A stretch of DNA of 64,000 nt from Agarophyton chilense. Taxonomy: Eukaryota; Rhodophyta; Florideophyceae; Gracilariales; Gracilariaceae. Numbering within the stretch: position 1 is the stretch's first letter; each line of letters opens with the position of its first letter. Below the pieces are notes generated by a model. The model saw nothing but the letters and a program-made list of their open reading frames with translations, made no database searches and was not told the DNA's origin. Position numbers and translations under genes: made by a program. The DNA lies in NCBI GenBank assembly GCA_030374765.1, contig JARGXX010000075.1, positions 1,116,001 through 1,180,000 on the forward strand, given 5' to 3'. Positions 2-64,000 of the stretch are shown here, one piece after another.

Positions 2-1123
2 CCAGTGGTGCTGGTTCCGAAACCTGGTGGTTCTTTACGAGTCTGCATCGATTATCGAAAACTGAACGCAGTTACAGTTCGGGATACATACCCGTTGCCT
101 CAAATGGACGAATGTATTGACAGCTTAGGAGAAGCGAACGTGTTTACCACGTTGGACGCCAACTCTGGCTATTGGCAGGTGCCTGTAGCGGAAGAAGACC
201 AAGGCCAAACCGCATTTGCGTGTCACGCCGGTCTCTACCGTTTCAAAAAGATGCCCTTTGGCTTAACGAATGAACCGGCTGTATTCCAGCGTACTCTGGA
301 CATCTTGCTCTCAAGATACAAGTGGAAGACTTGTTTAGTCTATTTGGACGATGTGATTATCTTTTCCCAGGATGTAGAAAGCCATTTACGGCATGTCGAG
401 GAGATCCTCAAAGCACTACAGAGCGCAGGTATCACCTTGAAGTTCAAGAAATGCGAATGGTTCGCTGGCACCGTCCGGTACTTAGGACACGTGATCAAAC
501 CGGGACAGCTTGCCATTCAAGAGGCACAGACAGCGGCTCTCCGCGAAGTACAACCTCCGTCGACACAGAAGCAATTCCGTTCTTTCTTCGGCTTGTGCAA
601 CTTCTATCGACGATTCGTGCCGCGATACTCGCATATAGCGGCACCGCTCAACGCAAAGCTGCCTAAAGGACAACCAGTACAGCTGGAACAAGTAAGACAA
701 GCTGAAGTGGAAGCGTTCAAAACGCTGAATACAAAGATTATTACAGTCCCAGTCTTGGCGCTGCCCATCCCCAACCTGCCATACTCAGTGGATACCGACT
801 CTAGCGAGTACCAAGTAGGGTGTGCCCTTTTTCAAACACACCCTGATGGTGAACGCAAACCCATTGGTTTCTGGTCAAGATCGCTGAACGGAGCTGAGAA
901 GAAGTATTCAGTTTCAGAAAAGGAATGCCTTGCAGTCGTTTGGGCTCCAACCACATTGCGACCGTATCTCCAAGGAGAACGTTTTACCGTCAACACGGAT
1001 CATTCGTCTCTACGATGGTTACTGTCCATTATAGACCCGTCTTGTCGTCTCACACGATGGCGCTTACGACTTTCTGAATTCGATTTCGGAGTAAAGTATA
1101 AGAAGGGATTGGCCAATTTTTAA
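2..1123 (+). pseudogene. Ty3-A pol fragment: reverse transcriptase and RNase H
   Basis: This open frame runs in from the left edge of the window. It starts inside the RT palm (CIDYRKLNAVT, then FTTLDANSGYWQV) and contains the catalytic VYLDD box near residue 115. The thumb signature SFFGLCNFYRRFVPRYS follows, then an RNase H domain starting at about residue 262 (SVDTDSSEYQVGCALFQ) with SVSEKECLAVVWA and NTDHSSLRWLL. A TAA at 1121-1123 interrupts the conserved ADALSRL motif, which continues in the same frame directly after it, so the stop is a mutation and not the natural end of pol. The enzyme would copy element RNA into DNA in the cytoplasmic particle. It is very close to the RT of Ty3-C in motif spacing. 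Confidence 0.9.
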
Positions 1124-2184
1124 GCTGACGCGCTATCGCGACTCAAATCACTGGGCGAAACCCAAGGCAAAATCGATGAAGAGATACCTTGCTTCTACAT
1201 GGAGACCCATTCACCATCTTTGAAGAAGAGGAACAAGAGACCCTTGATGATTATTTGGATGCGGACCCGTTCCTTGCATTAGCAGACACTGATTCTTCAG
1301 TTCAACTCGAGCGAATCTCGTGCACTGAGCTCCTCAATGCGTAACAGGCCGATACGTGTTGTGCGTCGATACGCTCTCGTCCTAACGGGGGGGAGGAGCT
1401 CCCCTTTGCACTCGATTCACGAGGAACACTGTTAAGACATGTCGAAAAGCATGATAAAATCGTGATTCCACACGTCTTGAAGATTCGAGTACTCTATCTG
1501 GCACACTACAGCAGGCTGTCTGGTCATCCAAGAGGAACGTTGCCGCTTCAGGCTGAACCGTCAGGTGAAGCGCCATTCGCTGTTCCGCCGATATCAGGTC
1601 CTATCCCTCGTGGGCAGGAAGAAGAAGACGTATCGCCTCATGTCGTGGTGCAAGCACCATCGTCTACCGAACAGTGGTCAGAATCCGATAAACCGAAGGA
1701 AGTTCATCCACGAATGGAATTGAGAAGTAGCAAGGAGTACGCTTCTATTGAACCTGGAAAACACGATAGCTCTTTATCTGAGAAAGGTTCTCAAGGAATG
1801 AGTACACTGCCCCTTCGGGCAGAACCACAGTTAGTCGACGAGCGAACTCTTAGCGACGCGGAGACTGCTAACACAGAGACGCTTGGGTCAGCCCTAAGGC
1901 ATTTCAAACCTGTTAACAGGAGTCTCGCGCCAACAGCGAAAGCATTGAGAAACGTCCAGGAATATGTTATGGATCGCATATGTGAACATGGCGAGCATGA
2001 AGATACCAGAGAATTACTGTATCGAGTCCGTTGGTACGTTTTTCCTCCGGAAGCGGATACGTGGGAACCTATAGCTCATATCCTCCGTTCGCAACTCGTG
2101 CGATATCATCGACGCATGCGATTACCACTCCCCAGGGAGATCGACTCCTCGATAGTCGGGCTCATGGGCACATCTCATTTCTAA
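1124..2184 (+). pseudogene. Ty3-A integrase remnant and chromodomain
   Basis: After ADALSRL the frame shifts near 1200 and an acidic linker follows. The start of the integrase zinc-binding domain is seen at about 1485-1530 (VLYLAHYSRLSGHP). The expected next block of that domain and the whole DDE catalytic core are missing: the frame runs straight into a linker rich in Glu, Pro and Ser, as if about 900 bp had been deleted. The last 90 residues (1462-2184 frame) hold a chromodomain with YRVRWYVFPPEADTWEP, a fold that in chromoviruses binds modified histones and steers integration. Comparison with Ty3-E, which retains the core, shows what is absent. This copy cannot encode a working integrase. 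Confidence 0.82.
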
Positions 2185-2455: not shown

Positions 2456-4282
2456 TCAAAGAGACGTGCGAGCACGCAGGTTCGAAAGAAGCTGGGCGCG
2501 ATCACCCTCAACTTGGTCCACGGGAAAGCCCACATCTAAGAGGAACTGCCATAGCGGATCCAAGCCTGGATCTCCGACCGGCACTGCACTCGGTTGTTTG
2601 GTAAACCCATGAGAGTACTCTTGAGCAACTCCCGCCGCTGCGGATTGATCGACGGAAGTCGATACGCTTGCCAGCTCTGGCTCGTCCTCGTAGCTGAGTC
2701 CAGCCTCAGCTCCTGGCGCTTCCTCATACGGTTCCTCTCCGTTTTCGGATGGAGTAGCATCGTACACGTATCTAGTAAGCTGGTTCGGTGGCATGTCACG
2801 CGGATTCTTCCGAAGAAAGCGAGCCTGCTCGAAGGTGATCAACTGGCGCGTCCAGGGGTCGTACCAAACGAAATCTCCAGCACTTTCTGTTAGTCCAGGA
2901 GAATGGTCGTAGCGTCTTGCACGGGTTCCGCGAGCGGATTGATCAGCAGGCACTCCAGACCAGTCGACACCGTCGATTACATCCACAAGATGGAGGAAGT
3001 CGGCATGGTTCGCACGGGATCCCACGACAAGGGAAAGATCGAGTTCTCTCGCATACTTTCGCGCTGTGGGCGACATGTACCAAACTCTAAAGGTATCATA
3101 AGCATCCCACAGGCGGAAGACGGCCATCTTGGCGATAAACTCGGTGTAAACCACCGTCCAATATCCCGAGAACCGGTCGTTAACCAACGCGGACCCGATG
3201 TAGGAGATTGCCGGTGGGAGCTCCACAGGGCAACCACGATGACTCTCGATCGCCGCCCAATGCTCCGGAATACCGATGTAGCGCCCGGAGCGCGCGATCC
3301 GCCGGATGCGGTCAATCTCGATCATTTGATACCGCATCAAATAGCACAAACGTGATCGAGTACGACGTTCCCGACGCGGATAATCCTAATAGGGAATGTC
3401 ACGCTTTCGAAGGAAGCGGAACTCCGCACGGAGAAGAGGTTGCTGAAAGCAGAGAGCTGCATCACGCACACCGCACATACCCCGCCAACCGCTAACATCG
3501 ACTTCATCGAGTGTCTCGATATACGAGTGACCTTCACCGTCGGTACGGGCTTTCCAGGTATCTAGTGCCCAGTCCTGCGGGAGGAGAACCGTACTGATGA
3601 ATATGTAAAGACGCTGGTAAATCAGCTTGGTGAACCGCGTACGGGCTTCGTACAAGGTTTCCGTTAAATATCGCGCAATCGCGTTGTCTGGCAAAGCAAT
3701 ATGTCTCGCCCAGTCGTCGCTATGAATCGCGTGTTCCGGAATACCATCAGGGAAGTACCCACCGTGTACATACTGTTGTATCAACGCGTCATCGGGGATA
3801 GCAACTGGATCAAACCAGGGCGCTTGCGCGAAAAGTTCAACGTTGTCGAGAGGATCTCGTCCATAGAAATCCGCAGGGTGCGGGTAGCTCCGCTGAGCAC
3901 GACGAGAAAAAGCTCGAATCACACCCTCAGGGGCGACGTAAGCCGCGTTCGGTATCGGAGCCACGGTTGGCTGAGGTAACTGTACCGACCGGAATCCTGT
4001 GTACGGGGTGGGGAGCGAACGGTATGGACCGAGTTGAGAAGTAGGCTGCCACTCAGAACCAGCAGTGTTTGACGGAGCTCCAGAAGGCACATCCTCAGAG
4101 GAGGGCTGAAACGGGTTGGACCCGGCGTTCGGATCCATCGCGAGAGATCGAGCTGAAGAACGGTGAGGAACAGAATGCTGTTGAGAACTGTAAGAGTTGG
4201 TCGTGCGGCGAGGAATTCGTGATGACGATGAGTACCCGGAACACCGGTCCGACTGCGTATAAACGCTTCTTGCGTCCCCCAT
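2456..4282 (-). pseudogene. Antisense accessory gene of Ty3-A (aORF-A)
   Basis: A 609-codon reading frame on the strand opposite gag-pol, lying between pol and the 3' LTR. Its ATG at 4282 is 24 bp inside the LTR edge. One in-frame TAG at 3386-3388 splits it into 298 and 297 residue parts in the same frame. The N-terminal 110 residues are rich in Ser, Pro and Asn. The middle has aromatic-rich blocks (DPLDNVELFAQAPWFDPV, YVHGGYFPDGIP) and the second half has VELPPAISYIGSAL and FIAKMAVFRLWDAYD. The C-terminal 110 residues are acidic. I recognise no known domain, signal peptide or membrane segment. Two further copies (15953-18456 and about 22979-24874) show the coding frame is conserved. It may be an env-position accessory protein or a late regulatory protein; the function is unknown. 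Confidence 0.8.
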
Positions 4283-4296
4283 GGTTCGCGCTTAAC

Positions 4297-4304
4297 GAGG
4301 GGGG
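4297..4304 (+). promoter_or_regulatory. Polypurine tract of Ty3-A
   Basis: A GAGGGGGG run lies two bases before the LTR start TGTAGT at 4307. This is where LTR retroelements place the primer for plus-strand DNA synthesis. The same tract stands, inverted, beside the Ty3-B LTR at 15931-15938, and a longer one beside the Ty3-C LTR. Confidence 0.75.
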
Positions 4305-4625
4305 TATGTAGTATTCTACTATGTCGGGGAATCCGATAGGATGTTTTTTCGCGAAGACGCGGTTGGAACTCATAAGTGAGTGATGTCATCAAACTTGTGA
4401 TATGAAACGGCACACCGCGTAGGATGCCAAGAGGCAGGGTACATTAGTGGAACACGTGGTATCACCAGTGGACTGGCTTGCAACGGCGCATGTAGTGGCG
4501 ATCCACGTGGCAGGTTTTACTACCCTTTGTAGCTAGACGTCCATTAGGGACCATACCAATACAGTGGTTTGGCTAAGTGGCTGACCACTGGTTATTATTT
4601 ATATATTTATTTGGACACTCACCCT

Positions 4626-4647
4626 GGTACACAGTATATAGTGTACC
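4626..4647. promoter_or_regulatory. TATA-centred inverted repeat in the Ty3-A LTR
   Basis: The 22-base site has seven-base arms GGTACAC and GTGTACC around AGTATATA, so it reads as a TATA box on both strands. The Ty3-B LTR keeps an imperfect version around 15588-15609 (GGTGCAC, TATATACT, GTGTGCC). Its position in the LTR, between gag-pol sense transcription and the antisense gene, would suit a bidirectional core promoter. That role is inference. Confidence 0.4.
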
Positions 4648-4717
4648 AGAGGTGAGCACCGACTCCAAGTAAAGGAGACAACATGGGCCTCATGACTATT
4701 CTGTTCCTCGCTTAGGA

Positions 4718-5404
4718 TGATGGTTAGGGAAAGGTTGAAGGAAAGGTTGAAGGATGAAAGGAAAGTTCGCCAGCTCTGGCTTGGATTTACTTGGAGGCGC
4801 TCAATCTCTCACTTATATACAACTCAAAAACGTCAGCCAACTAGACGCCAACCCAGAGTAAACCCTAGACTACAAATCAGGGACACCCAATACTACCAAT
4901 CATATTCAAGCAAGACATTAACCCTAGCCAAAGTTCATTGCAGCACAAAACAAGGCAATACAACAGTGCACAGCACATCATTACACTGACGTGTGAACAA
5001 ATCCAATATGCCAGCACACGCTTCTTGCAATCCGTCTCCATACACGTTCACCTTCCAGCACAGTACACCAAGTCTTCTGTAATACACATGACACGCTCTT
5101 CTCCAAGTACATTCGTTACACCTTGTGAGACGTGTACATAGTTCACCAGCTGGACATCTTGAACAGCGTGCACAATAGTACAAGTAGACAACGTGCACAC
5201 GTGTACTCCAGAAAATCCCAATAGTGCCATACCACTTGTACACACCACATTGCAGGTGCATACTTGCAGTAGCCAACCACAGCACGAGTTCACATTGAGG
5301 TACAGCTGATACGCATATGCGCTTTTCCAGAGGCACCCTCCAAAACAGCCCATGCTCTCCTGCACATATGGTTTTCAGTGACAGCATAGGCCTTTGCACC
5401 AACA
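4718..5404 (-). repeat. Copia-type solo LTR, copy 1
   Basis: A 687-bp LTR that on the - strand begins TGTTGGTGCAAA and ends CCATCA. It is flanked by a perfect 5-bp duplication TAGGA (4713-4717 and 5405-5409). The empty site is preserved in Ty3-B at about 15515-15530 (AAGGAATCCTAAGCG), which proves insertion into the Ty3 LTR. The family is tied to Ty1/copia because copy 2 is followed by a primer site and a copia gag-pol. Confidence 0.92.
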
Positions 5405-5665
5405 TAGGATTCCTTAACCGGAGATCTGGACGAGGTATAATAGATAGTCAGCCCCCAACCACTTCACGAACCGTCTCGGACCTACGTTCCATCAATGTTT
5501 TACAGTTGCACTGTTCACCCTCGCTGGCGAGTAGTGGCCTTACACCCCACTCCCAGCTCGCTGGTGTTGTAGCTTTACCCCCCCTTTTCCTTCGCCGCAA
5601 ACGACCCATCGGCAGTCCGAACGCTTTGGCAGGTGTCTGCTCTCTCCGTTAGAGCGGATACTACA

Positions 5666-10824: not shown

Positions 10825-11510
10825 TGTTGGTGCAAGTGCCCATGCTGTCACTGAAAACCAAATGTGCAGGAGAGCATGGACTGCTTTGGAGGGTGCCTCT
10901 AGAAAAGCGCATATGCGTATCAGCCGGACCTCAACGTGAACTCGTGCTGTGATTGGCTACTGCAAATATGCACCTTAAATGTGGTTTGTACAAGTGGTAT
11001 GGCACTATTGGGATTTTCTGGAGTACACGTGTGTACGTTGTCTATTTGTACTATTGTGCACGCTGTTCAGGATGAACAGCTGGTGTACTATGTACACGTC
11101 TCACAAGGTGTAACGAATGTACTTGGAGAAGAGCGTGTCATGTGTATTACAGAAGACTTCGTGTACTGTGCTGGAAGGTGAACGTGTATGGAGGCAGATT
11201 GCAAGAAGAGTGTGCTGGCATATTGAATTTGTGCACACGTCAGTGTAATGATGTGCTGTGCACTGTTGTATTGCCTTGTTGTGTGCTGCAATGAACTTTG
11301 GCTAGGGTTAATGTCCTGCTTGAATATGATTGGTATTATTGGGTGTTCCTGCTTTGTAGTCTAGGGTTTACTCTGGGTTGGCGTCTAGCTGGCTGACGTT
11401 TTTGAGTTGTATATAAGTGAGAGATTGAGCGCCTCCAAGTAAATCCGAGCCAGAGCTGGCGAATTTTCCTTTCATCCCTCAACCTTTCCTTCAGCCTTTC
11501 CCTAACCATC
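10825..11510 (+). repeat. Copia-type LTR, copy 2 (5' LTR)
   Basis: A 686-bp LTR starting TGTTGGTGCAAG and ending CCCTAACCATC. It is the family member that directly precedes a primer binding site and a copia gag-pol, so it fixes the identity of the other copies. It carries a TATA-like TATATAAG near 11411 and a TGTGCTGG-rich central part that also yields meaningless short open frames on both strands. Confidence 0.88.
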
Positions 11511-15262: not shown

Positions 15263-15928
15263 TGTAGTATCCGCTCTAACGGAGAGAGCAGACACCTGCG
15301 ACAGCGTTCGGACTGCCGATGGGTCGCCTGCGGCGAAGTAAAAGTGGTGGTAGAGCTACAAAAACAGCGAGCTGGAAGTGAGGTGTAAGGCAACTACTCG
15401 CCAGCGAGGGTGAACAGTGCAACTGTAAAATGTTGAGGGAACGTAGGTACGAGACGGCTGGTGAAGTGGTTGGGGGCTGACTATCTATTATGGCTCGTCC
15501 GGATCTCCAATTAAGGAATCCTAAGCGAGGAACAGAATAGTCATGATGCCCATGTTGTCTCCTATACTTGGAGTCGGCGCTCACCCTGGTGCACTATATA
15601 CTGTGTGCCAGGGTGGGTGCCCAAATAAATATACAAATAATACCCAGTGGTCAGCCACTTAGCCAAACCACAGTATGGGTATGGTCCCTAATGGACGTCT
15701 AGCTACAAAGGGTAGTAAAACCAGCCACGTGGATCGCCACTACATTCGCCGTTGCAAGCCAGTCCACTCGTGATGCCACGTGTTCCATTAATGTACCCTG
15801 CCTCTTGGCATCCTACGCGGTGTGCCGTTTCATATCACAAGTTTGATGACATCACTCACTTATGAGTTCCAACCGCGACTTCGCGAAAAATCATCCTATC
15901 GGATTCCCCGACATAGTAGAATACTACA
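15263..15928 (-). repeat. 3' LTR of Ty3-B, uninterrupted
   Basis: A 666-bp LTR with TGTAGT/ACTACA ends. It is closely similar by eye to the Ty3-A LTR once the nested solo LTR is removed, and preserves the empty insertion site AATCCTAAGC. A polypurine tract (as CCCCCCTC) follows at 15931-15938. Confidence 0.88.
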
Positions 15929-15952: not shown

Positions 15953-18456
15953 ATGGGGGACGCAAGAAGCGTTTATACGCAGTCGTACCGGTGTTCCGGG
16001 TACTCATCGTCATCACGAATTCCTCGCCGCAAGACCAACTCTTACAGTTCTCAACAGCATTCTGTTCCTCACCGTTCTTCAGCCCGATCTCTCGCGATGG
16101 ATCCGAACGCCGGGTCCAACCCGTTTCAGCCCTCCTCTGAGGATGTTCCTTCTGGGGATCCGTCAAACACTGCTGGTTCTGAGTGGCAGCCTACTGCTCA
16201 ACTCGGTCTATACCGTTCGCTCGGCACCCCGTACACCGGATTCCGGTCGGTACAGTTACCTCAGCCAACCGTGACTCCGATGCCGAACGCGGCTTACGTC
16301 GCCCCTGCGGGTGTGATTCGAGCTCCTTCTCGTCGTGCTCAGCGGAGTTACCCGCACCCTGCGGATTTCTATGGACGAGATCCTCTCGACAACGTTGAAC
16401 TTTTCGCGCAAGCGCCCTGGTTTGATCCAGTTTCTGTCCGCGATGACGCGTTGATACAACAGTATGTACACGGTGGGTACTTCCCTGATGGTATTCCGGA
16501 ACACGCGATTCATAACGACGACTGGGCGAGACATATTGCTTTGCCAGACAACGCCATTGCGCGATATTTAACGGAAACCTTGTACGAAGCCCGTACGCGG
16601 TTCACCAAGCTGATTTACCAGCGTCTTCACATATTCATCAGTACGGTTCTCCTCCTGCAGGACTGGGAACTAGATACCTGGAAAGCCCGTACCGACGGTG
16701 AAGATTACTCGTATATGGAGACACTCGATGAAGTCGATGTTAGCGGTTGGCGGGGTATGCGCGGTGTGCGTGATGCAGCTCTCTGCTTTCAGCAACCTCT
16801 TCTCCGTGCGGAGTTCCGCTTCCTTCGAAAGCGTGACATTCCCTAATGGGATTATCCCCGTTGGGAACGTCGTACTCGATCACGTTTGGGCTATTTGGTG
16901 CGATATCAAATGATCGAGATCGACTGCATCTGGCGGAACGCGCGCTTCGGGTGCTACATCGGTATTCCGGAGCATTGGGCGGCGATCGAGAGTCATCGTG
17001 GTTGCCCTGTGGAGCTCCCACCGGCGATCTCCTACATCGGGTCCGCGTTGGTTAACGACCCGTTCTCGGGATATTGGACGGTGGTTTACACCGAGTTTAT
17101 CGCCAAGATGGCCGTCTTCCTCCTGTGGGATGCTTATGATACCTTTAGAGTTTGGTACATGTCGCCCACAGCGCGAAAGTATGCGAGAGAACTCGATCTT
17201 TCCCTTGTCTTGGGATCCCGTGCGAACCATGCCGACTTCCTCCATCTTGTGGATGTAATCGACGGTGTCGACTGGTCTGGAGTGCCTGCTGATCAATCCG
17301 CTCGCGGAACCCGTGCAAGACGCTACGACCATTCTCCTGGACGAACAGAAAGTGCTGGAGATTTCGTTTGGTACGACCCCTGGACGCACCAGTTGATCAC
17401 CTTCGAGCAGGCTCGCTTTCTTCGGGAGAACCCGCGTGACATGCCACCGAACCAGCTTACTGGATACGTGTACGATGCTACTCCATCCGAAAACGGAGAG
17501 GAACCGTATGAGGAAGCGCCAGGAGCTGAGGCTGAACTCGGCTACGAGGACGAGCCAGAGCTGGCAAGCGTATCGACTTCCGTCGATCAATCCGCAGCGG
17601 CGGGAGTTGCTCAAGAGTACTCTCATGGGTTTACCAAACAACCGAGTGCAGTGCCGGTCGGAGATCCAGGCTTGGATCCGCTAAGGCAGTTCTGTTGAGA
17701 TTTGGTGGACTCTGCCCCCAAGCCCTTTGGAGTGTTGGAAATAGTGGAAAACAAAAAGTGGATTTAAGCATGGGCACTTTTGGGCACCCTCCACGGAAAA
17801 ACTCATATGCGCCTCATCTCAATCTCAACGTGAAACGGCCATCTGATTGGCTACTGCAAATGCCCTCATGCAACGTGGTATGGACAAGTGGTCTGGTTCT
17901 AATGGGGCGTGTTGGGGCTTCGGCCCAAGTGGAGCGATTTGATTGGACGAGAGCGCTGAATGAGCACGGGCTATGCAGTTGGAGAGAATGTGCGAATGTG
18001 GGCTGGATACGGGTTTGGCCGTAACAGCCGAATCTGGGGTGCGCGGGGTGGTTTGCACTGGCGCACCACTTTGGATGATTTTTTGAGTTTTTATTAGATA
18101 TGCTTCATGTTTGAAATTGTTTTGGCGCGCAACTCCTCGTCGCACAGTGGCAAGGTGTGAGACGTGGGTCACCCGCCGACAGTCAGCACTGGCGGCGGAA
18201 GTGCGTGCGAGGTAGATATAGTTTTCAATGAGGGTCGCCAACGATCGAAGTAAATTGTCAAGGCTGACTACCTTCCTTTGTTTCTCTTCTTTTATTTTTC
18301 TCTTCTTCTCGTCTTTTCCCCCTCTTCTTCCTTTTCCTTTACCTATCCTGCGCTCACGTTGTGAAGTTCCTCTTAGATGCGGGCTTTCCCGTGGACCAAG
18401 TTGAGGGTGATCGCGCCCAGCTTCTTTCGAACCTGCGTGCTCGCACGTCACTTTGA
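15953..18456 (+). pseudogene. Antisense accessory gene of Ty3-B (aORF-B)
   Basis: This is a close copy of the gene at 2456-4282, starting at the equivalent ATG 24 bp from the LTR. It reads through 297 codons to a TAA at 16844-16846, continues in the same frame (16847-17692) and resumes after a 672-bp insertion at 18365-18456 with the same C-terminus ending ARTSL. Shared blocks include NPFQPSSEDVPSG, DPLDNVELFAQAPWFDPV and FIAKMAVF. Differences from copy A are mostly single substitutions that keep the frame, suggesting selection before the copies died. It has no recognised domain. Confidence 0.8.
17693..18364 (+). repeat. Solo LTR-like insertion in aORF-B
   Basis: A 672-bp insertion absent from the Ty3-A copy, flanked by the 5-bp duplication AGTTC (17688-17692 and 18365-18369). 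It begins TGTTGAGATT and is a diverged relative of the copia LTR family: both share the order GCATGGGC, CCTC, AAAA(C)TCATATGCG, CAACGTGAA, GATTGGCTACTGCAAATG and a pyrimidine-rich end. Its last bases (TTGTGA) do not show the usual CA. Confidence 0.75.
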
Positions 18457-22202: not shown

Positions 22203-23019
22203 TGTAGAGCAATCCCAAATGGAGAAGTACATCTCGGGTGGTCGAGTACCGCTCTCGCGAAAAGGGGTGACTCAGCGAAAGAGCCTTCGTGCCACTTATG
22301 TGTGAGTGTAAGACCACAGTGTTTCAAGAAATATCTAAGATGGTGATGAACCCAGGAAAAGGAAAAGAATCAAAGTGGGATCCAAAGACAAGAATATTCC
22401 GTGGACAACAGCAAAATGTAGGGCGAACATGTTGGGCAGAATAGGACGCACGATCAGGCGTGCAGACATATGAAAGGGGTATCCATACTGGATAAGCGAA
22501 TTAAAGACGTGTAAAAACAACCCTATACAGAGGCGGTGTACTGTCCCAAACACAGGAAAACCAAGAAAAGAAAGAAACACACCAATAACAATGGTATAGT
22601 GACGCCTGAGCTTCCCGAGGGGATAGATTAGCCAAACCGGTGGCAGTTCCTGCCGTTAAGAGACGGAGACTCGCGTAGCTGACATAATCTAGAGCCACGA
22701 ATTTGGTTCCCATTTATTTGGTGGTAGTGATGGCGGTGAAGCCATCACTTAAGTCTAAACTAGACAGTGAACTACACGTGCAAACTATAGTAGTGCAATC
22801 CAACCCTGGTCCATACACGTATCATGTGAGTATCCCCAGCCTTGCACGTCCATCCGTCCACTATGGTACTACTGTAGATACTTAAATAACATACCTTCTT
22901 AGGTGCCTAAAATACTAAAAACTAATATTACTCATAACATCGGATGACGTGATCCCCGATATATCTCATGCCTTATGAATGGGGCCCCGATCGGTCATAC
23001 GCGCACGCGTTGTTCTACA
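22203..23019 (-). repeat. 3' LTR of Ty3-C
   Basis: An 817-bp LTR that on the - strand starts TGTAGAACAACG and ends GCTCTACA, giving a perfect TGTAGA/TCTACA inverted repeat. Its 22203-22939 part matches 34022-34673 in direct orientation with one gap of about 85 bp near 22370-22460. It directly follows the tract at 23020-23032. It also precedes the Ty3-D gag remnant, so it serves two element bodies. Confidence 0.8.
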
Positions 23020-24874
23020 TCTCCCCCTCCTTAAAGTTGGAGTACGGGGGAAATATCGCAATTCGAAGCGACGTGCGAACAACGTGAAAGGCAGTCCTTC
23101 CATTTTGGATGTCACCGATGTTCCGGTTCCTCGTAAGAAACTCTCGTCTGCCTCACTCAGTCCTATTAATTCCAACATCTCCTCTTCTGCTAAATCGCAG
23201 CTGGCTCAATCTTTTCCAAACGGAATGAATCCCTTTACGGACAACAACAATCAAGTTCCTTACGGTGCGCCGAGCTCTGCAGGATCACAATACGACAGTG
23301 GTTTCCTATGAATTCCGCTCCCTCAGGTGACTTCGCAACCTTGCGTGAACAACCTCTTCGACGCTTCCGTGTGGAGTTCGTCTCAAACGATTCTCGTCTC
23401 CTCGAAAGAATCCGGTTGGATATCGCACCGTTCGCTGATGGTGCGAGATCCTCTTTAGGACAATTTCCTCTATTCCCAAGCCCCCTGGTTCCATCCCACT
23501 ATGGTTCTCAACAATCAGTTGATCGACTCCTATGTGGAGAATGAGTACCTTCCGGGTGAACTTCCGGTTCAAATTGTCCGTTCCTTCGATTGAAAGACTC
23601 GCATCGAGGTTTACCCTAGTACGCTCCTAAGTAGAAGAAATGAAAGTCTCGATGAAAAGAGGTCCGCTATGGCGCGTCTGGCCTATCAGAAACTGAACTG
23701 TACCTTCGGTGACTCTCTTGTACCGTTGGAGTACATCTTGTGTGTGACTTTCTTCCGAACTCGCGGTGAGATATCCTATGGAGATAACCTAACTGCCTAT
23801 CTCGAAACGGAGTAAAACAGTCCTGGTGTTCCCAAGCTTGTTTCACACATGAAATATTGGAGCAGACCGATCCTCCGGGCGGAATTTTGATATCTATCGA
23901 GACAATCTCAGATATTCTTTTGTCAGATGATCCGTTTCGAGCGAGAAGCTCGTTCCCAATTCGAGTCTTTCGTACTGCATCCGAACGTTGAGGTTGAACG
24001 CCTCCATCCGCGTTTTTTTCTAGGGTAGTACGTACCCTTTTCCGGATGGTGGAATCAGGTCAAAGTACCTCGTGGGTGTTACGCAGAACTTCCTCCGTAT
24101 CTTACCTACACAGGTTGAAGATTGTTAGCCGATGAGCACTCGGGATACTGAAATTTGGTCCTGGTCGAATGGGTAATCTGCGTTGCGGCATTCGTGCTTT
24201 GGGAGGCCTATGATCAAAACCGATTGTGGTATCTTCCGATGGCTCTTCGGTCAACAATTAGAGCACTTAATCTATCCCCAGCGTTTGGTTCTGACGAGAG
24301 TTGTCGTGAAACACATTACTTACTGAGTGCCATCGACAGGGTCGATTGGTATACTGTCTCTCCTTGGAATTGCGCTTGCGGACAAGCTTTTCCGTACGAC
24401 TTGTCTTCAGGATGCCGGCGCCTAGGTGCTGGTGACTCTGTGTACTACGACTCATGGGAGGGTGTGATTACGACCGGTGCCCATGCGAAATCGTTGCGTC
24501 AACTGTCTCGGGGCATCCCAGAAGGATATCCAACTGGATTTGTACACTCTGACACCGTTCCGGTTACCATCGATTCCGATGATCCAAACGTGGACAACGA
24601 GGATGTTGTCGCCTCTAGAGGGACTGTTCCTATGGTAGTAGACGGTCCGAGTGGCGATACGGACGCTCCAGCGGGCTGGAAACTTACGACGCTCGCACCG
24701 AGTCCGGTTGATCCGCAAGTTGCGGTGATGCGCCTTCATCTCGAATCCATTGGTTTGGAAGTCCCTCCCAACATAGTCGGTATGGGAGAGCTCCTAGCCC
24801 TTGCGGCGCAGAGCTATCCACCAAAGACTGGTGCCTCGCAAAGTGGTGGGGCTAGTACTCCGACTGCGGCGTAG
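22979..24874 (+). pseudogene. Antisense accessory gene of Ty3-C (aORF-C)
   Basis: A diverged homologue of aORF-A/B in the same place, lying antisense between pol and the 3' LTR. Reading across several frameshifts and stops, blocks line up in order. These are NPFTDNNNQVPYGAPS (A: NPFQPSSEDVPSGAPS), DNFLYSQAPWFHP (A: DNVELFAQAPWFDP), LIDSYVENEYLPGELP (A: LIQQYVHGGYFPDGIP) and RPILRAEF (A: QPLLRAEF). Next come CYAELPPYLTYTG (A: CPVELPPAISYIG) and the clearest part, 24155-24874, with FVLWEAYDQNRLWYL, AIDRVDWYTV, GAGDSVYYDSWEGVIT and an acidic C-terminus. The start codon is uncertain: the ATG at 22979 lies inside the LTR. This is the key evidence that the gene is conserved between lineages. Function unknown. 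Confidence 0.72.
23020..23032 (-). promoter_or_regulatory. Polypurine tract of Ty3-C
   Basis: On the - strand AAGGAGGGGGAGA abuts the LTR start TGTAGA, the standard arrangement for plus-strand priming. Confidence 0.75.
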
Positions 24875-26813: not shown

Positions 26814-27837
26814 TCAGGATTCTCGATATAACTTCGGTGAGGGGAAAGCGGAGAGCGTCGTTTGAGCGTGAATAGCCACTGGTGGTGGGGTGGGGGATAA
26901 TAGAAACTCAAATGGTGACAGTGAGGTAACATGATGCACCTGGGTGTTATACGAAAACATTACCGTGTCAGTGTACAAATCCCATTGCTTGGGGTGATCC
27001 GCGACATGAGATCGTAACGCGTTCAACAATGTACGGTTGAACCGTTTTACCTGGCCATTCGTTTGAGGATGTTAGGTTGTAGTAAACAGGTTCCTTATTT
27101 CGAGTACTCGACACACGTCTTAAAAGAACTTTGACGTAAACTGTGAGCCATTATCTAAGATTAGATGTATGGGTGGACCGAAGACGAAGATCCGGAATTG
27201 CAAAGGTTTGTTCCACAGTATAATCTGCAATCCATTCAAGCGGTACTGTCCTGAAGAGCTTTGAAAAGCGGTCTTTCATCACCAACAGATATCGCTTTCC
27301 TCGAGGAGTCCTTATTAGTTCACCTAGAAGGTCGATAGTCACGAATTCTAAGAGCGCCCGTGCGGGAAATCGCTTCAAGATCTTCGAGTCTTTGCGTAAC
27401 TTCACGTCATTTTTCGCGCACTCCGTACTAAAACGGCGTACTGCATAACAGTCAAAAGCCATAGCAGGCCAGGAGAAATCCCTTCTAAGGTTCAAGTACA
27501 ATTTTGTTCCTCCAGAGTGGGAACTCAACTTCGAGTAGTGCGGAAGATGGAGTACTTTTTGCTGTAAGGAATGGGGAACCACAAGTTGGGGGTCAGATTC
27601 GATTTTTCGAGCCAGGTATCCCTGGTCATCTGTCCCAAAAGAAATTGTTGCTCCTCTGTTGAGGCGAGAACGGATCTGTGTACAGAAAGGATTCATTTGT
27701 TGTTCTCGGATCATCTTCTCAGAAGTTATTGGTACGAATGAACCCGTGAGGGGCTCCGAAGATTCGGCATCCAGTATATCGTCACACACGTCCTCCGATG
27801 TTATTTTGGGCGCTGCCATCAGCTTCTCCCACTTCAA
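26814..27837 (-). pseudogene. Ty3-C integrase
   Basis: Read on -: the zinc domain (VLHLPHYSKLSSHSGGTKLY, then RRFSTECAKND, where the expected Cys pair is degraded) and the first catalytic region (LLEFVTIDLLGELIRTPRGK, Asp present). The frame breaks near 27150, and a later block at 27029-26814 (LNALRSHVADHPKQWDLYTD) corresponds to the C-terminal part of the core. The intervening region around the second Asp and the Glu is frameshifted. It would have inserted element DNA into the chromosome; it is now inactive. Confidence 0.82.
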
Positions 27838-29381
27838 AGCAGGGAATATCGAGATCTTCGATAAGTTCTATCTCTGCAGAGGTTGTCAAGCGGAATAAAG
27901 CATCTGCATGCATGTTAAGAGTACTTTTCTTGTAAAAAACATCGAATTCAAACTCCGCCAATCGGAGGCGCCAACGCATGAGGCGTCCGGATGGTTCTGT
28001 TATTTCGATAAGCCAGCGGAGGGCTGAATGGTCAGTGTGTACCTTGAAATGGTTACCCATAAGATATGGCCGGAGCGTCGCTAGTGCCCAAACGACCGCG
28101 AGACACTCTTTCTCCGATACCGAGTATTTACGTTCATGAACGTCCAGACTGCGGGACCAGTAACCTATTGGATGTCGTTCACCTTTTTGTAGAGGTCTGA
28201 AATAGGGCAGAACCAACTTGCTCCTTGCTCACATCCGAAATAACTTCGAACGGAAGCCCAAGGGTGGGAAGCGCTAATATTGGCGGAGACGTCACCGCTT
28301 CCACAAGGGAATTGAAAGCGGACGTTCGAGTGTCTCGAAATGGTTCCAGTTCAACTGGTCTTCCTTTCCGAAGGAGCTCATTTAGAAGAGTCGCAATATC
28401 AGTGAAGTTCGGAACAAACCTGCGATATACATTACATAAGCCAAGAAATGATCGGAGTTCAGTTTGATTCGTCGTATATTTCGCCTCCTTCAACGACTTG
28501 ACTCGAACTTCATCGATTGATAGCCGTCTGGGTCCGATTATTTGTCCAAGATATTTGACCAAATCGGTAAAGAACTTCTACTTCTTCAGCTTCAATGAAA
28601 TTACTGCGTCGCGCAGTCTCCTCATAACATTCTTAACATGAGAGAGATGCTGGTTCATGTAGTTGGATAATACGATGATATCGTCCAAATATACTAAAGA
28701 GGTTTCCCACTTAAAGCGGGCTAATAGGATATCTATCGCACGTTGAAACATTGCAGGGGCATTCGTTAAACCAAACGGCATTCGGTTGAACCGATACAAG
28801 CCTTGATGGCAGACAAAAGCCGTTTTATCACGGACCTCCTTTCGAACAGGAACTTGCCTGTAAACCCAATTCGCATCAAGGGGGGTGAACACAGTCGCGT
28901 TTCCTCGCAAATAAATATATTCAGCCATCCGAGGGATCGGGAATACATCTTTCACTGTAACTGCGTTCAAGCGTCGACAATCAGTACCAAATCGCCACGA
29001 TCCATCCGCTCTCGGAGCTAAGACAACAGGTGACGCCAGAGGTGATTGGGTTGGTTCTGTAACGCCTGCGCTTAACATCTTCTCAACCTGAGTCTGCTCT
29101 TAAGGTTGAGCCTTCGGTCCAGCCCTGTAAGGGTGATGAGCGATCGGACGAGTATTCGTAAGCAAAACAATACAGTGTTCTGTGATTCCAAAGATTCCAA
29201 GGGAACCATCCCACATAGAAGTAAATTCTTTCGACATATCTCTTAACTTACCATGAGCTTCTCGGACATACTCCAGATCCCAATCCAACGTCTGTACCAT
29301 GCAGCAAAGCCTTCTGTTCCAACCCTTTCGGTTGTGTATTCGAATATTGGAACTTGGGCTCTACACACACAGTGTCAACAT
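27782..29381 (-). pseudogene. Ty3-C reverse transcriptase and RNase H
   Basis: On - from about 29300 (entry segment AHHPYRAGPKAQP). Then come VVLAPRADGSWRFGTDCRRL, TPLDANWVYRQVPV, MPFGLTNAPAMFQRAIDILL and the catalytic VYLDDIIVLS. A stop follows ISLKLKK at 28578. The thumb and connection (YLGQIIGPRRLS, SFLGLCNVYRRFVPNF) continue to 28179, and RNase H (SVSEKECLAVVWALATLRPY, HTDHSALRWL) follows to 27782 in a shifted frame. The domain order is typical Ty3. The catalytic Asp pair survives but the frame does not. Confidence 0.9.
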
Positions 29382-34021: not shown

Positions 34022-34673
34022 TGTAAAGCAACCCCAAATGGGGAAATACCCTTCGGGTGTTCGAGTCCCGCTCTCGCGAAGAGGGGTAACTCAGCGAATG
34101 AGCCTTCATGCCACAGATGTGTGGGTGTAAATCCACAAAGGTTCAGGCAATACCTACGAAGGTGGTGAACCCAGGTAAAGGAAAAGAATCAAAGGGGGAT
34201 CATATGAAAAGGGTATTCACACTGGATAAGCGAAATAAAGACTTGTAAAAACAACCCTATACAGGGGCGTTGTACTGTCCTAAACACAAGAAAACTAACA
34301 AAAGAAAGAAACACACCAATAACAACGGTACAGTGACGCCTGAGCTTCCTGAGGGGATTGATTAGCCAAACAGGTGGCGGTTCCTCCAGTTAAGAGACGG
34401 AGACTCGCATAGGCGACATAATCTAGAGCCTAGCACTGGGTTCCCCCTTACTTGGTGGGAGTGATGGCGGTGAAGCCATCACTTAAGTCTAAACTAGATA
34501 GTGAACTACACGCGTAGACTGTATTAGTGCAAACCGACCCTGGTCCATACACGTCTCATATGTGTAAACCCAGCCTTGCATGTCAATCCGTCCACTACGG
34601 TAATACTGTAAATACCTGAATAACATACCTTTTTAGCTGTCTAAAATACTAAAAACTAATATTACTCATAACA
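34022..34673 (-). repeat. 5' LTR of Ty3-C, truncated
   Basis: A direct repeat of 22203-22939, beginning TGTAAAGCAACCCC and ending ATTACTCATAACA. The last 80 bp of the other LTR (its U3 start) are missing and unrelated sequence follows, so the outer end of the element was lost. The 5' leader between this LTR and gag (33861-34021) shows no recognisable tRNA-complementary primer site. Confidence 0.82.
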
Positions 34674-35623
34674 TAGCATGAATCAGAAATAGCAGAGACC
34701 TAGGATAAGCGGCTCAAACCCGAATTACTCACCCGAAAGTCATGTGAACCACTTTTAGGTCAGGAACCCACTTTTTGGTGCAATGATGGGAGGTAAAGAA
34801 ACCACCAAGATGGTAAGATCTTTTTCGAAAGAGGATAGATTAGCGAACGGAGCCTCTCCAGCGTAACAGGACTAATTCAGAGTACAAAATATGAAGCTGA
34901 ACTATTTGAAGAACAAGAATAGGGAAAGGGACGGCAGAAACCTCGAAACGCGTGAATGATATCTTCTGGTGAGGTCATGAATCCACCATGATGGTAAGGG
35001 CAACTAAAAGGTGTCAGAGGGCAGATGCAACGAAAGCAACAAAACAATCACGAACGAAAAAGAGAAAAGAATGTCACGAGATTGGTATAGAATAAAGGGG
35101 AGATAGGAAAGGAGAAAGAAAAAAGGAAGAAACCCAACAATAAGTTGACAATCTTGTAACGCAATGACGGGTTAAGTCAGCGTACGGGCCTCGACCGGTG
35201 GTAGCATGGTAGAGCGGGTCCTAAGGTTCGAATCCTAGACGGCGGCACTCCCAGAGTACGTGGGGCAATGGGCTGGAGTTAACTGCGTAGTCCTACAGGT
35301 TGAAGCTACGGAAAAGATGGATTGAAGACCAAAGGGTGGAACTAATATACCAAACGGGGTTATTTAGTATCCTAACGGTGCCTCCCGTACTCTTAGGCAG
35401 AAGCGTCACTCAAGCCAAGTAAATAGTACAGGCGAGGCGCTGAGATCTCCCTGGCACTGTAGTGTTAATGTATTACGCTAAATAAAGAATAATAATAATC
35501 TACATGAGTCCACCTGAGGTCGACCCGTACACTTGTCACTTGCAAGATCCTTCAGGGTCCGGTGGCTTACCGGGTTCAACCAGTATTATCGCTCCTTCAC
35601 AAATCTTCAGACAATATGAATAA
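34674..35623. other. No gene recognised; tRNA-like fragment inside
   Basis: Non-coding, purine-rich sequence outside the Ty3-C 5' LTR. At about 35188-35247 a tRNA-like stretch is seen: TAGCATGGTAGAGC resembles a D arm (A box) and GGTTCGAATCC is a canonical T-loop B box, followed by an acceptor-like GGCGGCAC. No anticodon arm fits between them and no 5' acceptor strand pairs, so it is a tRNA relic or the head of a tRNA-derived SINE. Confidence 0.3.
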
Positions 35624-59559: not shown

Positions 59560-60246
59560 TCAGTACCACGAAGGTCTTAGGTTACCCGTCTGCAGGCATC
59601 GGCTCCTTGCGACAGCGCCAATACCTGATACAGAAGTGTGGGGGTATTGCGGCTGCGGGTTCGAGGGTGTCTCCTTCTGGGCCCAGCCGTACCACCTGAC
59701 GGTGTACTTCAGACCATTGTAGGCTCGCGTGTGGCCTACAAGACGGTCTACGGGAAATTCTTCTGAGGTTTGGTCCTGGTCTTTCGGGGGAACGCCACCT
59801 CGAGGCTTCATATGTTCCGAGTTGGGAGCTTCATTTGTGGGAGCCGAATCGGGAGCTCCCGCTGCTACCGTGTGAGGTTCCATTTCCGTCCCTGTTAGAG
59901 GGTTTTAATCCGGATCATCCCGATGTAGTTCATCATTCACCTCAATTGGGGTGGGGTCCTCCGAGGGTCGAGTGCGCAGAGCTACCGCTCTGGGCTCTCG
60001 GACTGAGGTGCCCACCTCCATGCGATGTTGAACTGTTTCAGGTGCTACCGTAATACGGTCAATTGATATCGTATTCGGTATTCCATCTTGGTCAACTGTA
60101 ACGGTGTGGTCTGATGCGTTCAATACCTTATAAGGTCCCACTGATTCGGGTAGAAGCTTCGAATTGATATCTCTTTCAATAGCTTCATCGTCTGCTTCAT
60201 CACCCGGTCGTGGTCTTTTACCTGAAGGTGGGTTGTCTATGTAGAC
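59560..60246 (-). pseudogene. Ty3-E integrase C-terminal region and chromodomain
   Basis: Continuing from the integrase after a stop, a GPY/F-type block is seen (SVGPYKVLNASDHTVTVDQD, 60141-59905). After a linker comes a chromodomain (RAYNGLKYTVRWYGWAQKE near 59700) that shifts frame in the middle of its last part. It would target integration to chromatin marks. Confidence 0.75.
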
Positions 60247-61206
60247 CTATTGTCCCGAAGATACAGAGACCACTTTGGTTACCCTACGGTCGTAGTCGGC
60301 CTTGTACCGCTTCTGGGCTGCTGTGAGGCGGCTCTCTGCATGTTTGAGAGCCCTCCTCAACCTCACAAGGGTATTCCGCTTGACCTGGGCAGAGGTCAGT
60401 GCGCCAGCTGCAGTGCTGGTGGTATGATCTCCCTGCACTACAATACCTGGGGGGTGTCGCGAAAGAACCAAATCAAAGGGAATGGTCTGCGTTAACCGGT
60501 GCACCTGAAGGTGATAGGAGTAGGTGAGCGGTTGCACCAGCTCATCCCACCCAGTTTGGTGCTCTTCCGTATAGTGTCGTAGCCTTGATACCAATGTGTG
60601 GTTAAAGCGCTCGACCTGTCCGTTCGTCTGCGGGTGGTAGGCAGTCGTGAAATAGTGCTTGATACCCAAGAGGTTACAGACTGCTTCGAAGAATTTCGAT
60701 GCCAGGTTTGAACCAGTATCGGTGAGTAGGTACAGTGGTGCACCATACGGGTAGACCCAATTGTTGAGGAACGCCATCGTCAGCATTGTTGACTTCGTCT
60801 CCCTTAAAGGTATCGCTCTCGTGAGCTTCGAGAACTTGTCGGTGATCACTAGAATGTGCTGATACCCGTTCTTAGTCTTGGAGAGTGGTCCTAGAAGATC
60901 TATCGCAACAAACTCCAGCAGACCCGCTGCTGGAAACAGCTTGAGGTACTTTCGATGCTTTCGAATACCACTGCGGGTACGAACACAAGATTCGCATTGA
61001 CCTACAAAGGTATAGACATCATGGGCCATATGAGGCCAATTGAACCGTTGCCTCAAGGTGTAATATATCCTGGTGGCACCGGGGTGTCCCGATAGTCGCG
61101 GGTAGTGCGCGAGATACAAGACTCTCGGGCGCAGTGCATTCGGAACCTCCTTTTGAAGGCTACCATCTAAGGTTGACCTTCTCACGATGTACCCCTTTTG
61201 GTCCAC
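60247..61206 (-). pseudogene. Ty3-E integrase
   Basis: 319 residues in one frame. The zinc domain HHCC is intact (LAHYPRLSGHPGATRIYYTL, QCESCVRTRSG). The core has Asp in LLEFVAIDLLGPLSKTKNGY, Asp in YLLTDTGSNLASKFFEA and Glu in YHPQTNGQVERFNHTLVS, so the DDE triad is complete. This is the best preserved Ty3 integrase in the window. The neighbouring pol parts are broken, so it is probably not expressed as a working enzyme. Confidence 0.9.
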
Positions 61207-61275
61207 ATCGAATGGTTATCCTTTAAAACCAATTTGGTCAGCCAGGGTTCTGCAGTACGCATCCTGGGCCTTTTC

Positions 61276-61887
61276 TCATAAAAATTCCTCTCGGGTTACG
61301 GGCATGACGTTCGTTTCCTCTATGGTCAGTATCTTCGTTGCCATGTCGGTGTTCCGCAAGGCACCTTCTTCAGGTAAGTCCCAACATCCTTCTAGGTGTT
61401 CGCCGGTACCATTTTGGTTTGATGACACCAAAAACCAAGGTATATCATCGTCCACAGGTTCTGTCTCTAGCCCTGAGGTGTTTAAGCGTGACATAGCGTC
61501 AGCTATGTTGTGCTTGATACCTCGACGGTACTGTACGTCGTATTCAAACTCCGACAGTCTCAACCTCCAACGGGCAAGTCTACCAGACGCATTTGCGAGT
61601 CCGAGGATCCACCTCAAGGCGTCGTGGTCGGTGCGCAACGTAAAGGGCTCACCATACAGGTATGGACGGAGCATCAACATGCTCCACACTACTGCTAGAC
61701 ATTCCTTCTCGGTTACCGTGTAGTTCTGCTCCGCCTCATTCATAGCGCGGCTCCAGTATCCTATAGGTAATTTGTCTCCGTTGTGCTGCTCCTGCATGAG
61801 ACAAAAACCAATGTGGGCATGGGATGCATCTGTATCCAGCGTGTACGGTAGACCTTTTTTCGGTAGCGCTAAGATTGGAGGCGACAT
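61276..61887 (-). pseudogene. Ty3-E RNase H
   Basis: Frame starting PPILALPKKGLPYTLDTDAS (first catalytic Asp) with YTVTEKECLAVVWSMLMLRP, RTDHDALRWILG and NIADAMSRL. It degrades the RNA strand during reverse transcription. It is separated from RT by frameshifts at about 61890-62070 and from integrase by a stop near 61207-61276. Confidence 0.87.
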
Positions 61888-62814
61888 CAGCGCTCGTTTG
61901 AATCCTCAAAGGTATCCATTTCGTCGTTCGATAGATTCTCAAACCGTTCAGGTTCACCTTTCTGGAGCTTCTTGTTGAGGGGAGCCGCTATTTTCGCGAA
62001 TCCCTTCACGAAGCGACGATAGACGTTCCATAAACCTATAAAGGATCGTACGTCTGTCTGGGATCGTGGCAACTTGACCTCCTGTATGGCTCTAATGTTG
62101 CTAGGCGCAACCGCTACGGTACCAGGGCCTATGATGTGGTCCAGGTATTCAACCGTTCTGGTAAAAAAAGTCGCATTTGCGTAGCTTCAGCGTCACCCCC
62201 GCCTCAGCTAGGGGGGTTAATACGGTGCGTACGTGAGCAAAATGCTCTTCTACCCATCTGGAGTAGATCATTACACCATCGATGTATACCAAGGCGGTTG
62301 TCTATTTAGCCTTCGAAAGGATGATGTCCAGCGCCCTTTGAAATGTGTCTGGAGCATTGCACAACCCCAAAGGCATCTGCACGAAGCGAAACAAACCTGT
62401 ATGGCACGTGAAGGTCGTTTTGTCTCGATCTTTCTCACCTACAGGTACCTGCCAATAACCACATTTGGCATCCAACGTGGTAAATATCTGCGTATCTCCC
62501 AAGGAGTCGGTGCACTAATCCATCCTAGGTATAGGGTACGAATCTCTGATGGTCACGCTATTGAGCCTCCTGTAGTCCCCACAGACCCTCATACGGTTAT
62601 CCCCTTTCTTCTGAACCAGAACCACGGGACTAGCCCAGTCCGAGTTGGCTGGTTCAATTACACCTTCTTGGAGCATTCGCTTCACTTCTTTGAGTTCTAC
62701 CTCTCTCGCCTCCGGACCTGTACGGTATGGTTGCTGATAAATCGGCTTCGAGTCAGGGAGGAGCTCGATGCGATGCTTTGTGGCCTTAATTTGGCCCAGA
62801 TGGCCTGACCACAT
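61888..62814 (-). pseudogene. Ty3-E reverse transcriptase
   Basis: Entry segment QQPYRTGPEAREVELKEVKR, then DWASPVVLVQKKGDNRMRVC and FTTLDAKCGYWQVPVGEKDR, then MPLGLCNAPDTFQRALDIIL. A stop follows at about 62302. The catalytic box reads VYIDGVMIYS: the second Asp of the usual D-D pair is Gly, which would inactivate it. The thumb (SFIGLWNVYRRFVKGFAKIA) is in another frame at 62072-61887. Confidence 0.87.
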
Positions 62815-62949
62815 GATTTCGAACTCCTCCAGGAGGTCGATAATACGGCCCCGCAGTTGGCCGTTATCTTCACCGATCTGGACTGTATCTTTCCATTGCC
62901 TCTCAGGGTCAGGTTCCTCTTCTTTGTCTACCGATGCCTTATCGGTTAG

Positions 62950-63870
62950 CTATGATTCCAAGTTGGTATTTATCGATACCTTTGTGGTTGTGGACGCATT
63001 TGCGCACCCCCCTTCCTTACCGAAGGCGACCTCGCCGAGATCAGTGTGAGCTACGGTGAAGACACCTTGTGGTGCCGGTATTGCGATGCCAACATTGGTA
63101 TTTTTCGGCAACTTCACGTCATGACTGCTGAAGTTGCTGAGACACACCTTAAAGGGTTGATTTGGGATGTTTTCGACAATCCCGTTGGCCATCAAGGTGA
63201 GGTGTCGGTGTGCTAACCTCGGATGGTTTTGTATTATGACCAGCTCGGGGGTCGCACACGACACCAGTACCAATATTTGGTGCATTGGCGGGATAACAAC
63301 CTGTTTGGTAATGCGCACTTTGTTGGAGACCGTTTTGGTGGATATCGTCTTCTTCGGTTTGACGAACCATCCCCGTTTTGTTTCCGTATTACCTAAAATG
63401 GCAATTCGTCCCCCGTGACGTAGGGCGACGGTACGGGAACCTGGAAGGATTGCTTTGACATGTCTGTCAATGAAGTTCGTACCTAGTAGGAAGTCTATCG
63501 TTAAACGGTCGACAACAAATAATTTCAGTCTTACCTTGAGGTGTCCGAGCTGCATCACAGTGGTGAGCATACCTCGAAGGTTTAATGGGCGCTTATTTGC
63601 ATCCACCAGCGGGTTGTTATCGGGAGGTCGGCTCAAGTTCCGAAGTACCGCCTCAGGTATGACGCAGGAGTTCAGGACGTTTGAACCGGCCCCCGTACCC
63701 CACACGCAGGTGACCGGAACCGCAAGGCGATCGGAGAAACACATTGAAGCACGTACTTTATAGTTTTTGTACTTCATATGACAAACCGGAACTGGTTGTG
63801 ACGTGTTGTCTTCCACCTTCAAGGTTCTGGGTATCGATTGGCCTTCCAATTGCAGATGGGGTTCGGCCAT
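62950..63870 (-). pseudogene. Ty3-E protease region
   Basis: 306 residues in one frame. After an N-terminal linker comes VTCVWGTGAGSNVLNSC, in which the catalytic Asp of the D-T-G triad appears as Gly. RLTIDFLLGTNFIDRHVKAI, the second protease signature, follows, and then a long linker towards RT (PPMHQILVLVSCATPELVII). The lost Asp would disable it. Confidence 0.75.
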
Positions 63871-64000
63871 TACGCCAAGTATTCGGTGTTTCCCTCCTGT
63901 ACGGGAGAGGTTGAGTCCAAGTTTGGTGTTTCCTCGATGGTATTGACCTGTACCGGTGTGTGGGGTTGGAACCTATTTGGTGCTTGCGTTTAAGAGCCAT
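63758..64000 (-). pseudogene. End of Ty3-E gag, partial
   Basis: The frame entering from the right edge (KRKHQIGSNPTHRYRSIPSR) is basic and Pro/Thr-rich, as expected near the end of gag, and overlaps the start of the protease frame. Too little is visible to identify a zinc knuckle. Confidence 0.4.

Follow-up and report, generated by a model that had tools for sequence, protein, structure and literature searches.

The antisense gene in three Ty3 elements

The window is a 64,000-nucleotide stretch of the Agarophyton chilense genome (G000:C75:1116001-1180000); the whole assembly surveyed comprises 79.76 Mb in 135 contigs. Three Ty3 elements in the window, A, B and C, each carry a copy of one gene on the strand opposite pol, and each copy adjoins a 3' LTR, as the original prediction had placed them. 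The features of these elements, and of a fourth Ty3 element, are as follows.

2..1123, plus strand: element A pol, reverse transcriptase and RNase H (Pfam RVT_1 4.5e-34, RT_RNaseH 6e-33)
1462..2184, plus strand: 3' end of element A pol, with chromodomain (Pfam Chromo 8e-7)
2456..4282, minus strand: element A antisense gene, 609 codons with one in-frame stop at codon 299 (ORFs 3386-4282 and 2456-3349)
4294..4304, plus strand: element A polypurine tract, AACGAGGGGGG, between the antisense start and the 3' LTR
4307..5665, plus strand: element A 3' LTR, with ends TGTAGTAT...ATACTACA (repeats and junctions)
15263..15928, minus strand: element B 3' LTR, inner edge at 15928
15953..18456, plus strand: element B antisense gene, stop at codon 298, last 30 codons at 18364-18453
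22203..23019, minus strand: element C 3' LTR (repeat of 34022-34681, and junctions)
23216..24874, plus strand: element C antisense gene, homology from about 23216, open frame only at 24155-24874 (3' part)
27151..29099, minus strand: element C pol remnants, reverse transcriptase at 28578-29099 and integrase zinc domain at 27151-27867 (Pfam)
34022..34681, minus strand: element C 5' LTR, aligned part
59560..63972, minus strand: fourth Ty3 element, RNase H and integrase (Pfam)

The 609-codon frame predicted in element A exists, but it is not one open frame. The in-frame stop at codon 299 splits it into halves of 298 and 297 amino acids in the ORF listing. Element B holds the expected close copy, in inverted orientation and 96% alike in DNA across 2,120 bp, but this copy is broken by its stop at codon 298 and by an insertion of ~660 bp (17702-18363) that has no counterpart in A and lies ahead of the last 30 codons. 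The pol of element B is reduced to the last ~120 bp matching the A pol frame, and another repeat starts near 18.85 kb. The diverged, collinear homologue in element C is also present: residues 40-534 of the database protein P0007 align with 23318-24802 at 32% identity (tblastn, E 6e-57). Its frame is open only from 24155, however, and the start earlier assigned to it, 22979, falls within the 3' LTR, which extends to 23019 on its inner side. The antisense gene is real, but its copies in A, B and C are all damaged and are pseudogenes. A chance origin of the frame is excluded, because 611 consecutive sense codons have a chance probability of ~4e-12 at 53% G+C and the frame is common to many copies.

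An LTR-like repeat of 670-690 bp has five copies in the window (4719-5405, 10824-11510, 19197-19880, 29382-30073 and 32626-33296). The first, a 687-bp repeat of another family, is nested in the 3' LTR of element A and interrupts it; another lies upstream of the reverse transcriptase in element C. Elsewhere, two host ORFs, one Sec63/DnaJ-like (48449-51400, minus strand) and one COP9 signalosome subunit 3-like (50850-52709, plus strand), overlap over ~550 bp at the 5' ends, going by automatic ORF calling.

Position between pol and the 3' LTR

The antisense gene fills nearly all of the DNA from pol to the polypurine tract. Its stop stands tail to tail with the pol frame, across a gap of 271 bp in A and ~140-310 bp in the loci of a further subfamily, D. 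The pol chromodomain scores 29.3 bits in A, above the Pfam cut-off of 25.1, and 23.3 bits in D, just below it. At the other end, the antisense start is adjoined by the polypurine tract and the LTR in A, B, D and a subfamily E; C, D and E have AGGAGGGGG as their tract. From the antisense ATG to the LTR the distance is 24 bp in A and B and 35 bp in D; in E it is ~80 bp if translation begins at the first ATG. Among A copies the first ATG is not constant: it is replaced by I in L008 and by L in L018.

Tandem repeats occur at some of these loci. At L010:5407-5672, 8.6 copies of a 31-bp pyrimidine-rich repeat stand in the gap separating the pol and antisense stops, with shorter arrays at the matching place in other A copies, and a 49-bp repeat is present in 4.2 copies within a D-type pol region (L043:6242-6448).

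Copies and subfamilies in the genome

The G. chilensis genome is reported to consist of 66.2% repeats (PMC10388701). Among the matches listed there are more than 300 copies of the antisense gene, and many hold an unbroken frame of ~606-652 codons. The search with the A type began with 1,328 first-look candidates, of which 150 were scored; none of these 150 had an E value above 2.2e-135. Subfamily D comprises at least eight copies with frames near 652 amino acids, found among the 83 matches listed for P0008. Subfamily C has at least 30 members at 63-74% identity besides the window copy; many are partial, and 22 of the 30 contain stops. Subfamily E, seen in the same set of 150 matches as C, is large and has frames of 640-650 amino acids. 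A further subfamily is of the P0006 type; residues 1-406 of P0006, an Agarophyton chilense entry, are 100% identical to G000:C25:465587-466804. The antisense proteins of A, C, D and E share 35-41% identity (36-41% among A, C and D).

Many copies outside the window are intact. The frame reaches at least 606 codons in 13 of 14 A-type loci of ~8 kb (L009-L020, L049 and L050) and 651-681 codons in seven of eight D-type loci; these loci were picked partly for open frames, and two of them, L011 and L012, are near-identical. For the E type, a hand count found no stop across 400 codons in 66 of the 104 best-scoring copies (of 1,792 candidates). The intact count leaves out L014 (frame of 479), L048 (517) and the C-type copies.

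A protein family without a recognised domain

A search of 5.8 billion proteins yielded 20 members of the family, P0001-P0020. Six are A. chilense entries annotated as "unnamed protein product", and 14 come from other sources without an organism label. Homologues beyond the window copies, which the original prediction called for, are thus found both in P0007-P0020, whose hosts are not named, and in the further copies in the genome. Our alignment of 21 rows (A7) combines 18 of the 20 database proteins with three pieces from the window. The alignment, and the Pfam, PHROGs and fold work based on it, did not include P0003 and P0004, for which the precomputed Pfam field is blank, just as for the other 18. 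The 17 other aligned members are 34-88% identical to P0002, those from other sources 34-52%.

The conserved core contains the motifs APWF, RT.GE, RPLLRAEFR, WERR.RSR.GYLVPYQ..E, LW..YD..R.W and D.SPGR...GDFV.Y.PW. It is followed by an acidic tail, with a net charge of -13 to -16 over the most acidic 50-residue stretch (A and D), and most full-length members end in a C-terminal R.FL...G hairpin. Two AlphaFold models (mean pLDDT 68.3 and pTM 0.64; 63.0 and 0.55) are both mainly helical, and their predicted secondary structures agree by eye.

In line with the original prediction, no domain was recognised: searches of Pfam, PHROGs, PDB sequences and folds gave no usable match. A Pfam scan of the 21 alignment rows at E 1 found neither PF04195 (Transposase_28) nor bZIP, and no known capsid or envelope domain was matched. 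Sub-threshold hits in the Pfam, PHROGs and PDB searches, to E3_binding (best 0.029, in 5 of 21 rows) and Ish1 (0.092), were taken as chance. Foldseek gave no usable match in the PDB for either model, or in BFVD for the first. VIA-align returned nothing usable, but this says little because only 14 and 7 chains were compared, mainly over the C-terminal hairpin. Scans of GTDB genomes and IMG/VR contigs confirmed no relative. Hydropathy revealed no general transmembrane helix, and no signal peptide was seen by eye, which would speak against an Env protein. Two of the 20 members do have a 19-residue hydropathy window above 1.6: in P0011 (1.86) it falls in the core helix, and in P0019 (1.78) within an extension at the N terminus. 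The gene is also antisense to pol, in contrast to the sense orientation of an Env-like gene. No description of this antisense gene was found in the openly accessible journal literature.

Selection on the antisense frame

The antisense protein is under purifying selection between subfamilies. Four pairs of A and P0006-type sequences gave dN/dS of 0.12-0.16 (NG86), with dN of 0.24-0.32 and a dS of 1.90-2.15 that is near saturation. In the first of these pairs, 88, 76 and 214 differences fall at codon positions 1, 2 and 3 (P 7e-21). For D versus E, dN/dS is 0.32, with dS near 2. Between A and C, the comparison first proposed, the ratio is 0.34 and not near 1 (dN 0.67, dS 1.98, 133 codons); the A and P0006-type pairs are the better ones because synonymous sites between A and C are close to saturated. 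NG86 values alone are given for diverged pairs, and four further pairs had no dS estimate. In a six-frame test, the antisense frame alone was free of stops and alone showed a low dN/dS. The sense frames of the A and P0006-type pairs have dN/dS of 0.29-1.96 and stops in both sequences; after the antisense frame, the lowest values in the A pairs (0.29-0.30) belong to the wobble-aligned sense frame, which carries 10-19 stops in each sequence. The conservation earlier noticed at the protein level is therefore borne out between subfamilies, and in the antisense frame only.

Within subfamilies, pairwise dN/dS is 0.61-0.83 (NG86) or 0.73-1.24 (YN00), and the codon positions are alike in the three pairs tested. 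In the antisense frame, pN/pS among 38 distinct A-type sequences is 1.02 when singletons are counted and 0.88 for variants that are shared; the latter value does not stand out from the 0.79-1.50 of the five other frames. The corresponding D-type values (8 sequences) are 1.13 and 1.41, the second based on 26 variants. Integrase is more constrained than the antisense gene, with pN/pS of 0.71 for singletons and 0.43 for shared variants (11 sequences) against 1.03 and 0.74 for the antisense gene of the loci compared (13 sequences). We rejected the A-type polymorphism as proof of selection; it is mostly post-insertion decay, and the frame is unremarkable among the six. Near-neutral decay within subfamilies would follow if copies are free to decay once inserted and only source copies are under selection. 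Since no signal was seen within subfamilies, the claim of selection rests on the comparisons between them.

Association with integrase and the element clade

Matches to the integrase of A (114 scored of 3,927 candidates) were compared with the antisense matches. At least 65 of the 114 have an antisense match within 6 kb, among the matches listed, and 74 do after 15 matches from the P0008- and P0006-type searches were added by hand. In all 74 pairs the antisense gene lies downstream on the opposite strand, at a median offset of 3.0 kb; ~3 pairs are expected by chance. The remaining 40 are not absences, because the antisense matches are only those listed. Four of the 40 were spot-checked; three carry the antisense gene, and in one, L057, it was not found. 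By eye, a D integrase sits at the corresponding position for six of the eight D antisense copies. Long pol-strand frames are present at the other two, with traces of integrase and chromodomain in L046. Comparison by eye of D-like integrase coordinates with the E-type antisense copies showed no link.

The fourth Ty3 element of the window also contains, by eye, protease-, reverse transcriptase- and chromodomain-like stretches. A search with P0001-P0008 found no antisense homologue in it, nor could its 3' LTR be placed. The integrase of this element shares 45-46% identity with A, C and D, against 54-65% among those three (over only 93-134 residues wherever C is compared). Its reverse transcriptase is 67% identical to A over 36 residues and 52% to C over 58, stretches too short to weigh. 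Since this element showed no homologue, the antisense gene was either gained or lost among these elements; a single gain in the ancestor of the A/C/D/E clade is the simplest history, and a loss in the fourth element is possible. A Copia element (RVT_2) at 40478-42451 on the minus strand likewise has no homologue of the antisense family nearby.

Discussion

The constant position, the conservation of the protein and the purifying selection between subfamilies support the original view that the antisense genes encode a distinct accessory protein family without a recognised domain. Reports of such antisense genes in plant retrotransposons go back to the late 1990s but give them no function (citations in PMC7264820). 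Those called aORF-3R in plant Ty3 elements (Grande gene23, RIRE2, Retand ORF4 with Transposase_28/TRP28, and PvRetro13) are likewise antisense, lie between pol and the 3' LTR, occur in most copies and are of unknown function. The algal gene has this position: it is on the strand opposite gag-pol, between pol and the 3' LTR, in most copies. It differs from Retand and TRP28 in that the algal family has no PF04195 match and element A has a chromodomain, whereas Retand belongs to a non-chromovirus lineage. The host here is a red alga; the proteins of Grande, RIRE2 and PvRetro13 were compared by description only. Boty of Botrytis cinerea is also among the closest known systems and was set beside the algal elements by description, not by protein comparison. 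Because it shares the aORF-3R position, has no Pfam link to TRP28 and occurs with a chromodomain unlike Retand, we filed the gene as a new protein family. The family is new, but genes of this kind are known from plant and fungal elements, in which an antisense ORF likewise separates pol from the 3' LTR.

The HBZ protein of HTLV-1 has a bZIP domain. HBZ is encoded by an antisense gene with negative-sense promoters in the 3' LTR (PMC10186651), a layout that appears to be the same as that of the algal gene. HTLV-1 is a retrovirus and the algal elements are retrotransposons, the algal protein has no match to bZIP or another domain, and an antisense promoter in the algal LTR is suggested by the spacing of 24-80 bp. 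In the LTR retrotransposon MchSLE-1 of Mytilus chilensis, both sense and antisense transcripts are described, and cultured cells can express its antisense ORF as part of a fusion (PMC10974842). That ORF is 67 amino acids long, compared with 606-652 codons in the algal gene.

Taken together, the anatomy, the copy number and the conservation between subfamilies show a genuine protein-coding accessory gene of one chromodomain-bearing Ty3 clade in Gracilaria/Agarophyton chilensis; we propose, at a probability of roughly 0.45, that it encodes an LTR-driven trans-regulator. An antisense promoter in the 3' LTR would drive the gene, since the leader must cross the polypurine tract into the LTR and there is almost no other upstream DNA within the element. 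The product, with a mostly helical predicted core, a putatively disordered acidic tail and a C-terminal helical hairpin, would regulate the element in trans from within the nucleus. It may tune LTR transcription or shield it against host silencing, in the way that HBZ acts on the HTLV-1 provirus. This role is suggested by the analogy with HBZ and with the GENE23 protein of Grande, which is reported to be nuclear (PMC7264820); the proposed mechanism is built on the gene's position and on these parallels, and no recognised domain points to it. Several considerations count against the model: selection is not visible within subfamilies, integrase is the more constrained of the two genes, the first ATG varies among A copies, and no DNA-binding domain was recognised. 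In addition, the antisense RNA could pair with genomic RNA and may invite RNA silencing.

The main rival is a role of the protein in the retrotransposition machinery rather than in transcription, for instance in the particle, in nuclear entry of the pre-integration complex or in target choice. The constant association with pol would fit such a role, as would the divergence of both proteins among A, C and D (integrase 54-65% and antisense 36-41% identical). However, Gag and pol are described as normally sufficient (PMC7264820), a structural protein would not usually be expected to come from an antisense transcript of its own, and no known capsid or envelope domain was matched. We regard it as a rather unlikely explanation. 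The protein could instead derive from a captured host gene, or from a gene of another mobile element or virus, and be cargo that is useful to the host or to nothing. The lack of a confirmed relative in GTDB or IMG/VR and of a matching fold agrees with capture, as does the fourth Ty3 element without a homologue to P0001-P0008. Yet A, C, D and E all retain the gene at 35-41% protein identity and under purifying selection between subfamilies, and the slot it occupies is constant across A, B, D and E. Among the matches listed, none was recognised as a free-standing copy, although a single host copy may have escaped such a listing; nor was a captured host gene restricted to these copies seen, which had been named as an outcome contrary to the prediction. 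Capture is less probable still.

Two further explanations do without the antisense protein. Non-coding antisense LTR transcripts are known in retroelements (PMC10186651; PMC7264820), so the RNA might be the functional product and the reading frame a by-product. This is very improbable: the codon-position pattern and the six-frame control speak for a protein, which can still be recognised, at 34-52% identity, among sequences from other sources, and the dN/dS of 0.12-0.16 between subfamilies refutes RNA as the sole explanation. An additional role of the RNA beside the protein is possible. Least probable of all is a gene on the sense strand of the same DNA with the antisense frame as its shadow. 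A sense frame of 271-298 codons is open in many copies, but the six-frame test refuted this idea: the sense frames between A and the P0006 type contain stops in both sequences, and the lowest of their dN/dS values (0.29-1.96) is that of the wobble-aligned frame, as a shadow would show.

The trans-regulator remains our preferred reading, and these elements probably make a helper protein of an unrecognised kind. A bolder version, which we offer tentatively and think somewhat doubtful, is that one red-algal clade of chromoviruses encodes, on the minus strand and from the 3' LTR, a trans-regulator or anti-silencing factor of undescribed fold that is needed for their success and is independent of HBZ and TRP28. 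Another protein family in the slot between pol and the 3' LTR, in a red alga and in chromoviruses, would suggest that this slot has been used repeatedly for antisense accessory proteins.
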